A DNA stretch of 64,000 nt from a virus. The stretch covers positions 99,978-163,977 of IMG/VR virus record IMGVR_UViG_3300046096_000189; one strand, 5' to 3'. A model generated the notes under the pieces. It was given only the letters and a program-made list of their open reading frames with translations. It was not told the DNA's origin and ran no database searches. Shown in pieces: positions 27,347 through 29,919 of the stretch (the stretch's first letter is position 1; the number at the start of each line of letters is the position of its first letter). The position numbers and the translations under genes are program-made.

Positions 27347-27383
27347 CTCGTGAATGGTTGGAAGTTAAAAGTGCAGCATAGTA

Positions 27384-27411
27384 CCTTATCCACCTTAACG
27401 GGTGGATAAGG
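27384..27411. terminator. Hairpin at 3' end of the 27421 frame
   Basis: CCTTATCCACC and GGTGGATAAGG form a perfect 11-bp stem with a 6-base loop just after the stop at 27421. T-rich sequence follows only on the plus strand, so the direction is unclear. Confidence 0.6.
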
Positions 27412-27420
27412 TTTCTATGT

Positions 27421-27876
27421 TTAGCTTTTTAAATCCTTCTCTATGTCTGCCATAGCTGAAGACTTCTTCTTGATTTGATCCAAGGCTATTTGGTTCATCA
27501 TCTCGTGTACATCTCTAGGGACAGCTAAGTACTCTTCAAACGACAACCCAAAATGCTCTCGAATATTACTATCTATATAAACACGCATAGCTAACTGTAA
27601 GCCACTGCCGTCGTTGACGTCTTCGATGTTGTGAAAAGCCACCGAGGCTAATGGGCGTGTCTTGTTGGATTGACCGAAATGATTGTAGATCCCTATTTCT
27701 GTTTCATAGAGATCCCCAAGCACTATTTTTACATCTGTTCTGTCCAGCTTAGGTAGCATGGAGAAGAGTTTGTCCCTGAACTTATCTATGCTAAAGTCAG
27801 CTCCAAACTCTGGATGTGTGATGTTGTTAATACTCAGCGTTCGGTCAATCTCGTTAGACGTTGAGTATAGAGGTCG
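27421..27876 (-). CDS. -1 frameshift extension of the 27834-29348 protein (candidate)
   Basis: The frame is open from 27876 to 27421 (151 codons). Its first ATG (27759) has no ribosome site, and 39 sense codons lie between that ATG and the slip site. These include a protein-like SINNITHPEFGADFSIDKF overlapping and following the stop of the upstream gene. The simplest reading is a -1 shift at T-TTT-TTC (27882-27876), which appends 151 residues to the first 491 of the upstream protein (642 total). A 6-bp stem begins 8 bases after the slip site. Phage tail assembly chaperones are a known class using such shifts. Alternatively it is a separate gene from ATG 27759 (112 residues) or from a CTG overlapping the TGA stop. 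Confidence 0.55.
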   Translation of the reverse strand, partial: RPLYSTSNEIDRTLSINNITHPEFGADFSIDKFRDKLFSMLPKLDRTDVKIVLGDLYETEIGIYNHFGQSNKTRPLASVAFHNIEDVNDGSGLQLAMRVYIDSNIREHFGLSFEEYLAVPRDVHEMMNQIALDQIKKKSSAMADIEKDLKS

Positions 27877-29348
27877 AAAAAAACTGTCATGGTATCCAAC
27901 GGAATGATGTTGGTGTGACGTGGCAGCTTATGTTCGACTTCTTGTTTCTTACCGCAAGCAGGGCAGTCATAAACAGGAATGCCGATTACAGAGATGGTGC
28001 TTTCTCCGATGTATTTGATGATCTCTTTGATGAAGTCTGACAGAATCACATCTTCACTAGAAAGAACATCTAAACATTGAGAGAGAGTCTCAGGATCAGA
28101 AATCACATTACTATCGATCTCCACACACTCCACCCAATGACGGTACTGTCGCATAGCCGATGCTTGACCGTATTTAGTCAGCAAAGACTCACGTTCCGTT
28201 TGGGAAGTCTCTGTGGTGATGGCTTTCTCCATGATCTCTACCATATCAGAGATCCAGACATGACCAGCATCCACATATTCTTTAATAGAGGGCGTTCTCA
28301 AAGTAAAGAAGATCTTGCTGCCGTTAACTGTATCGATAGATACTTTTTTGTTATTGGCTACGGCAAGTTCTTCTTTATAACGAGTTACTGATGCAAGATC
28401 TTTGCTTCTGGCTTGTCTTGAAGCCATGTGTGATTTTTGCCAATCAGTGAGCGGAGCAGTGTTGACCCACTGAAGCTTAGACAAATTAAGAGTTTCTTCA
28501 AGAACATGGTGACACTTCTCAGGATCAGCAACACAAGCTCGTTGATATTTAAACCCACGAGGATAGACAGAACACATCAAACCCCAGATCAATGTAGGGA
28601 TGTCTTGTGAGACTATGATGTTCTTCAGAAGTTCTGTATTAAGATCTTCTGATTTCAGAGTCGTGTCATAAACATGACTCAGCACAAAGTCAGTAAGACG
28701 ATCTGTGGTGTAGGAGCTGGTGTTGGAAAATGCCAAACTGTGAGTGAAACGACCAAAACGGATCTTGTCACTCAGCATCAGTCGATTCAACTCCAGCAGT
28801 TCAGCTTCACTTGGTGGTTTGATTGTTACCCAAATGCCTGTGTGCCACAGAGGCACCTGAATCAAAGTACCCAGACCCAACTGAGTAATCATTCGAATGA
28901 TAGCTCGTTCACCTTTGATCTGTTGATTCTCAAGAGGTTTGAACCGAGGAGCCGCCGCATTCAGGTTGATGCCTTTATACTCTACCTTTTGTGTGAAGTT
29001 AGATCCAGGTTTAGTAACTGTATCACCAAAGACATCTGAATACATGGTCCTGGTCAGACCTTCCGTCAAAGCGGTTGCCCACTTTCGAGACTCAGGGTTG
29101 TCCAGCATGTTGACGTTAGGAATATTAGAAACAATATCCCGAGTGCGTTTGGCTGTATCAGAAGGTAGAGCGATATTATCTACAGCTCCTTGAATGTTAC
29201 TGGAATATTCTACTTCCAAAAGACAGTTACCATCTCCATGAATAACAGTCTCTGCCACAGGAGCTGTCTCATGTTCTGGTTCATCTACAACAGGAACACC
29301 TTGTGGATGAACCTCAGTTGTTTCAACTTTGACTTCTTCACTGTTCAT
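27834..29348 (-). CDS. Zinc-ribbon protein, possible tail/baseplate assembly factor
   Basis: Start placed at ATG 29346-29348 (MNSEEVKVETTEV), with AAGGA 7 bases upstream; the ATG overlaps the end of the 29338 gene. 504 residues in the normal frame. The N-terminus is acidic and Pro/Val/Glu-rich; the body has GTLIQVPLWHTGIWVTIKPP and a helical central region. Near the C-terminus lies YDCPACGKKQEVEHKLPRHT, a half zinc-ribbon followed by TMTVFFDLYTQ. T4 gp26-like baseplate-hub assembly proteins also end in a C-P-x-C-G-type element, so a related role is possible but unproven. A slippery T-TTT-TTC sits 13 codons before the stop (see 27421-27876). Confidence 0.5.
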   Translation of the reverse strand: MNSEEVKVETTEVHPQGVPVVDEPEHETAPVAETVIHGDGNCLLEVEYSSNIQGAVDNIALPSDTAKRTRDIVSNIPNVNMLDNPESRKWATALTEGLTRTMYSDVFGDTVTKPGSNFTQKVEYKGINLNAAAPRFKPLENQQIKGERAIIRMITQLGLGTLIQVPLWHTGIWVTIKPPSEAELLELNRLMLSDKIRFGRFTHSLAFSNTSSYTTDRLTDFVLSHVYDTTLKSEDLNTELLKNIIVSQDIPTLIWGLMCSVYPRGFKYQRACVADPEKCHHVLEETLNLSKLQWVNTAPLTDWQKSHMASRQARSKDLASVTRYKEELAVANNKKVSIDTVNGSKIFFTLRTPSIKEYVDAGHVWISDMVEIMEKAITTETSQTERESLLTKYGQASAMRQYRHWVECVEIDSNVISDPETLSQCLDVLSSEDVILSDFIKEIIKYIGESTISVIGIPVYDCPACGKKQEVEHKLPRHTNIIPLDTMTVFFDLYTQRLTRLTER

Positions 29349-29919
29349 TTGCGGTTCCTTCAGCAACAGGGGTTTTAACTTCAGCATCAGAAATTACAGT
29401 TGGATCTACCAAATCTTTCTGTTTCTGAGCTTCAATTGTTTCTTGATCGCGCTTTTTCAATTCATCCTGCATGGCGATCAGATGATCAGTCACCGTCAAC
29501 ATAGGTGAAACCAACAAAGATTGAATGCGCAAAGCCGATGTTTTGTAGTCCTCGCCGATAGTAAGGTAAGCAGAGATATCTGCATCTTCTACTTTACCTG
29601 TCTTATCAACATGTCCTTTATGGATGGTAACCAGTTCTTGAGTGAGGGTTTCAATATCAGAAGACAAACCTTTGATAGTCACAGACAACTCATTGTTAAC
29701 TGGAACAGCATGCATTTTGAACAAAGTGATGGCGCGTTCGACAGAGATAGCCTGATCTACCAGACCACCGGCTACTGTCTTGTAAAGTTCTTCGAGTTCT
29801 TCCCAAGTCATCGAGAAGGGTTTTTCTTCAGCAGTGATACCTGCACGATCCATCAGCTGGTTCAGCAGAGGAAAAGTCACAGGTCCTTGGGAATTTTGCT
29901 GGGGGATGTTTTGTGCCAT
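29338..29919 (-). CDS. Hypothetical partner of the zinc-ribbon protein
   Basis: A 193-residue helical protein. The N-terminus is Gln/Asn-rich, the middle (WEELEELYKTVAGGLVDQAI) is helical, and the C-terminus is Lys/Glu-rich. It ends with GAAGGAACCGCAAATGAACAG-type overlap that supplies the ribosome site for the next gene, so the two are translationally coupled. Small helical chaperone-like proteins commonly precede larger tail assembly factors, but no family is recognised. Confidence 0.45.
   Translation of the reverse strand: MAQNIPQQNSQGPVTFPLLNQLMDRAGITAEEKPFSMTWEELEELYKTVAGGLVDQAISVERAITLFKMHAVPVNNELSVTIKGLSSDIETLTQELVTIHKGHVDKTGKVEDADISAYLTIGEDYKTSALRIQSLLVSPMLTVTDHLIAMQDELKKRDQETIEAQKQKDLVDPTVISDAEVKTPVAEGTANEQ

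Follow-up and report, generated by a model that had tools for sequence, protein, structure and literature searches.

Candidate programmed −1 frameshifting at a gp26-like tail assembly chaperone gene of phiKZ-like jumbo phages

Introduction

Frameshifting in tail assembly chaperones (TACs) is represented by the lambda gpG/gpGT system (Xu, Hendrix and Duda 2004, as cited in PMC5009743). The tail frameshift is described in that review as widely conserved, with the exception of T4. Poly-T signals have been attributed to the TAC-N genes of T4-like phages (Vladimirov, Gautam and Davidson 2022, as cited in PMC12846349). The TAC genes of Vandenendeviridae and Andersonviridae are associated with a GTTTTT frameshift (PMC12846349; Moogle, PMC4319497).

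The phiKZ-like jumbo phages are a major model group. A search of the literature, mostly of non-subscription papers, found no report of frameshifted or identified TACs in phiKZ-like phages, including phiKZ, 201phi2-1 and SPN3US, in agreement with an earlier sequence-only reading of the present locus, to which no such frameshift was known in this group. A TAC frameshift is a known kind of event; for the phiKZ-like jumbo phages it appears to be new as far as the literature was searched. Here the gene pair of the phiKZ gp77 and gp76.4 families is proposed as a frameshifted TAC. The locus lies on the minus strand of a 64,000-nucleotide stretch of viral DNA (the window; positions 99,978 to 163,977 of IMG/VR record IMGVR_UViG_3300046096_000189, a virus contig 163,977 bases long).

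The slip site and its two reading frames

The 0-frame gene (27834..29348, minus strand) begins with an ATG at 29348 and ends with a TGA at 27836-27834, giving 504 codons plus the stop and a product of 504 residues. Close to its end, a slippery heptamer T_TTT_TTC is found in the 0 frame at 27882-27876. The codon context is GTT TTT TTC GAC, in which TTT TTC encodes F490-F491 and is preceded by GTT; the stop is 13 codons past the slip codon. An open −1 frame runs from 27927 to 27424 (168 codons, 151 of them counted from 27876) and is closed by a stop at 27423-27421. The predicted extension thus occupies 27421..27876 on the minus strand, 151 codons plus the stop, and the fused product computed from the sequence is 491+151 = 642 residues. 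The heptamer position, its distance from the stop, the 151 open codons and the product lengths of 504 and 642 residues had all been given by the sequence-only reading and were confirmed. The 17,018 codons of the window ORFs with at least 250 aa contain two in-frame copies of T_TTT_TTN, and only the copy at 27882-27876 is near a gene end.

The gene upstream of the chaperone (29338-29919, minus strand) has a weak match to phrog_14050, overlaps the chaperone start by 11 nt and may belong to the same unit. In the jumbo phages examined, the chaperone likewise has a gene in front of it at this position. Just past the −1 stop is a perfect 12-bp inverted repeat (27383..27412), a possible transcript end, followed by a conserved 20-base stretch (27363-27384). 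Each occurs once in the window and both recur in L023, the closest relative, where the stem of the repeat carries a paired change. In the annotations of relatives the neighbouring genes are those of RNA polymerase and helicase, with no recognised tape measure gene adjoining.

Conservation of the arrangement

The loci compared were drawn from 22 isolate phages and from IMG/VR, giving 87 non-duplicate loci including the window, or 51 clusters at 60% identity. The isolate loci included kmuB (listed as Phikzvirus), phiKZ itself being left out. The sequence-only reading had singled out the heptamer and the −1 overlap for checking, and related phages keep a slippery run together with the overlap. 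A profile of the −1 domain placed it in the −1 frame in 87/87 loci, and a run of five to nine T is present at each of them. The form T_TTT_TTN is found in 62 of the 87 (TTTTTTT in 45, TTTTTTC in 16 and TTTTTTG in one). A further 18 have A/G_TTT_TTY (GTTTTTT in nine, ATTTTTT in seven and A/G_TTT_TTC in two) and six have A/G_CTT_TTT, while the site of the remaining locus, L078, is degraded. With A or G leading the heptamer at about one-fifth of the loci, CTT as the P-site codon at six and a degraded site at one, the efficiency of slippage must vary or another rule must apply. At L078 (3338-3383) GTT TTT TCC stands where relatives have GTT TTT TTC, with the −1 frame intact; this may represent a different slip, a sequencing error or an escape variant.

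The distance from slip to stop ranges from 8 to 44 codons among the loci, and the 0-frame tail past the slip is poorly conserved in the family alignment. Between the window and L023 (84% identical), there are two changes in the 67 nt from slip to stop, compared with 283/1284 upstream and 101/407 downstream (22% and 25%). Such low divergence is as expected of a sequence that is predicted to be doubly coding and to bear a signal.

None of the 22 isolate annotations joins the two frames; in all of them separate genes are called or the second frame is missed. The annotation of kmuB has no gene for the second frame, and that of FLC9 starts the second gene 77 nt after the stop.

Absence of a shared start for the second frame

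The calling of a separate gene by annotators would be in keeping with two ordinary genes, the second having an internal start of its own or being translationally coupled to the stop of the first. Candidate starts do exist. The first ATG of the −1 frame in the window (27757..27759, minus strand) is 39 codons in and 77 nt past the 0-frame stop, and in a group of Pseudomonas phages (Psa21, D6 and relatives) an ATG is found at +26. However, the ATG of the window is probably not a start, as it is replaced by AAT in L023 and lacks a well-placed ribosome site. The sole ribosome-site-like element is an AGGGA 13 nt upstream, too far away for a good site, which bears out the earlier claim of 39 codons before a first ATG with no ribosome site. 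A normal start codon with an SD sequence in relatives had been named as one finding that would count against a frameshift; the relatives have no such start in common. By a count from the locus table, the −1 frame of 32/87 loci is free of ATG, GTG and TTG codons as far as about codon 30 of the homologous domain. In addition, homology of the −1 domain begins before residue 20, well ahead of the ATG. The −1 domain overlaps the first gene by 46-511 nt across the 87 loci, always in the −1 phase, whereas coupled genes usually overlap by a few bases. Together with the codon selection on the T run described below, these observations make two ordinary genes a very improbable explanation.

Codon selection at the T run

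A Phe-Phe pair could be a requirement of the protein, so selection at the nucleotide level was tested. In the P site, Phe is encoded by TTT in 80/80 loci, and elsewhere in the same genes there are 355 TTT against 780 TTC (31% TTT). When the loci are thinned to the 51 clusters at 60% identity, the P-site codon is TTT in 49/49, against 246 TTT and 425 TTC elsewhere. The codon preceding the slip ends in T in 38/46 of these clusters, compared with 372/1366 for the same codon boxes, although the loci are related and the trials in all of these counts are thus not fully independent. Judged from codon choice, the T run is under codon selection.

A T run of this kind could also act during transcription, with the RNA polymerase adding a base and the second frame being read from the altered mRNA. 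Runs of eight to nine T are present at many loci, and by annotation these phages carry their own RNA polymerases, which may slip on such runs. Many other loci, and in some clades all of them, have no more than five or six T, which is short for polymerase slippage. The run is also kept in codon phase, though a Phe-Phe requirement would have the same effect. On account of the short runs and the codon phase, transcriptional slippage is considered improbable, and slippage of the ribosome is preferred.

A clade-specific downstream stem

A stem TACTCA/TGAGTA begins 8 nt past the slip, its 5′ arm at 27859..27868 and its 3′ arm, which overlaps the 0-frame stop, at 27830..27839 (both minus strand). In the window 9/10 stem positions pair, with one A.C mismatch. 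Covariation is seen in the six members of the clade (the window, L023 and L048-L051): the ten-pair stem pairs in 86.7% of cells, three pairs have changed on both sides and sliding of the partner lowers pairing to 22-42%. Taken alone, the stem of the window is marginally better than shuffles (z −1.7), and folding 75 nt of the window alone favours a structure other than the covarying stem. Family-wide, no general downstream hairpin was found, the 60 nt past the slip showing no folding advantage over other segments of these genes; other clades must therefore use another stimulator or none. Of the stem described by the sequence-only reading, its presence 8 bases past the slip site holds and is strengthened by covariation, but it is a feature of this clade and not of the family.

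Relationship with T4 gp26

Both products fall into phrog families of unknown function, the first into phrog_4585 (E 8e-100) and the second into phrog_12109 (E 4e-23). By tblastn, the first protein was found in 235 phage records, all at <60% identity and mostly from phages of Pseudomonas, Erwinia, Salmonella, Serratia, Klebsiella, Aeromonas and Vibrio. By annotation it corresponds to phiKZ gp77, PhiPA3 074, 201phi2-1 gp136 and EL gp47, and the second frame to phiKZ gp76.4 and 201phi2-1 gp135. Searches of Pfam gave no credible family and no match to a TAC family, and sequence and fold searches of the PDB gave nothing credible.

An AlphaFold model of the 504-residue protein, made with 52 sequences from the window and IMG/VR, has a pTM of 0.83; that of the extension is helical, with a mean pLDDT of 84 and a pTM of only 0.58. 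In a Foldseek comparison with viral models, the matches outside the family were T4-like baseplate hub assembly proteins (probability 1.00, E 9e-5 to 1.5e-3). Comparison of both products with the single T4 gp26 and gp51 sequences was uninformative, and profile-versus-profile comparison was needed. With hhalign, the C-terminal part matched T4-like gp26 at 78% (E 1.8e-5), the CPxCG motif and the FF-L end being aligned, and it matched the gp26 of cyanophages and Chrysonvirus at 91% (E 1e-6). The CPAC half of a zinc-ribbon-like motif common to T4 gp26 lies at 27954..27965 on the minus strand. The earlier guess of a tail chaperone is thus supported by profile and fold similarity, and a relationship of the 0-frame protein with T4 gp26, a known TAC, is indicated with moderate, not strong, confidence.

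For the extension, the match to cyanophage gp51 is weak (probability 5%). T4 gene 51 was considered as its counterpart and rejected: in T4 it is transcribed divergently from gene 26 and has a zinc-ribbon-like motif of its own, unlike the 57-aa cyanophage gp51.

A real frameshift could also yield proteins other than tail assembly chaperones, such as baseplate proteins of the virion. Some records name family members as baseplate proteins, no tape measure gene adjoins the locus, and the chaperone role is a putative one. Against this, gp26, called a baseplate hub assembly protein elsewhere, is annotated in Konradin as a tape measure protein assembly chaperone, and the jumbo protein resembles it. 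In the 201phi2-1 record, moreover, gp135-gp137 are without a mass-spectrometry note and the neighbouring gp138 and gp139 have one, a missing note being weak evidence. A baseplate or other role is accordingly rated as unlikely, and a chaperone role is favoured.

Candidate slip sites in gp26 of cyanophage-like and T4-like phages

In S-PM2 (L106, 2106-2342), and in phiAS5 with three relatives (L104, L109-L111), T_TTT_TTC is found at the same FF pair, one codon before the gp26 stop. The −1 frame that follows holds the so-called gp51 or a truncated version of it, and in the phiAS5 relatives the −1 peptide is conserved ahead of its first Met. A search with S-PM2 gp26 gave 62 distinct loci (L112-L191); the heptamer is invariant at this position in 62/62 and is followed by a −1 frame of at least 50 codons. 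This arrangement in cyanophage and phiAS5 gp26 may already have been described, to judge from the citation of Vladimirov et al. 2022 in PMC12846349. In Cba120 (L107, Ackermannviridae), an unannotated −1 frame of 61 codons at 2220-2402 follows gp26 and resembles the gp51-like extension; no obvious canonical slippery heptamer accompanies it.

There is about an even chance that the phiKZ-like jumbo phages and the T4-like phages inherited from a common ancestor a T-run frameshift at the Phe-Phe end of their gp26-type chaperones. If so, the slip was kept in the jumbo phages and cyanophages and lost in T4, which is the textbook exception to the rule of tail frameshifting.

Proposed mechanism

The best explanation of the locus is most probably −1 programmed ribosomal frameshifting on U_UUU_UUY, yielding a short and a long TAC. 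This is favoured because of the −1 arrangement, the codon selection, the missing starts, the clade-specific stem and the likeness to T4 gp26; the FF slippery heptamer in the gp26 of cyanophage-like phages and Chrysonvirus was also counted as support. From sequence and by analogy, we infer the slippage itself, its level, the chaperone activity and the part played by each form, as follows. Most ribosomes would stop at the TGA (27836) and release the T4 gp26-related protein of 504 residues. On the T run, a minority would slip back one base while decoding TTT-TTC and enter the −1 frame, helped in the clade of the window by the stem 8 nt downstream. The slipped ribosomes would produce the 642-residue protein with its helical C-terminal extension. 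If the two forms act like lambda gpG and gpGT, the tape measure protein would be the binding partner of the short one, and the rarer long one would use its extension to bring in subunits of the tail tube or hub. The predicted fusion protein is open to search in existing infection proteomes.

Comparison with known systems

If correct, the finding ties T4 gp26 to the frameshifting chaperones of the lambda type. As in lambda gpG/gpGT, a −1 slip near the end of a chaperone gene would give a short form and a long form with a C-terminal extension. Unlike the lambda system, the short form of the window is gp26-like with a length of about 500 aa, the slip is on poly-T and the jumbo gene is surrounded by genes for RNA polymerase and helicase instead of directly preceding that for the tape measure protein.

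T4 gene 26, similarly, does not adjoin gene 29. Its product shares with the jumbo protein a related C-terminal region, the CPxCG motif and the FF end, but T4 gene 26 has no long −1 extension besides gene 25. Compared with T4-like gp26, the jumbo protein is more than twice as long, and its slip is 8-44 codons before the stop instead of one.

The TAC genes of Vandenendeviridae and Andersonviridae are similar in having poly-T at the end of TAC-N, a −1 frame open in all genomes and a second frame that is usually annotated separately. They differ in belonging to other phage families and in the position of the TAC directly upstream of the tape measure gene.
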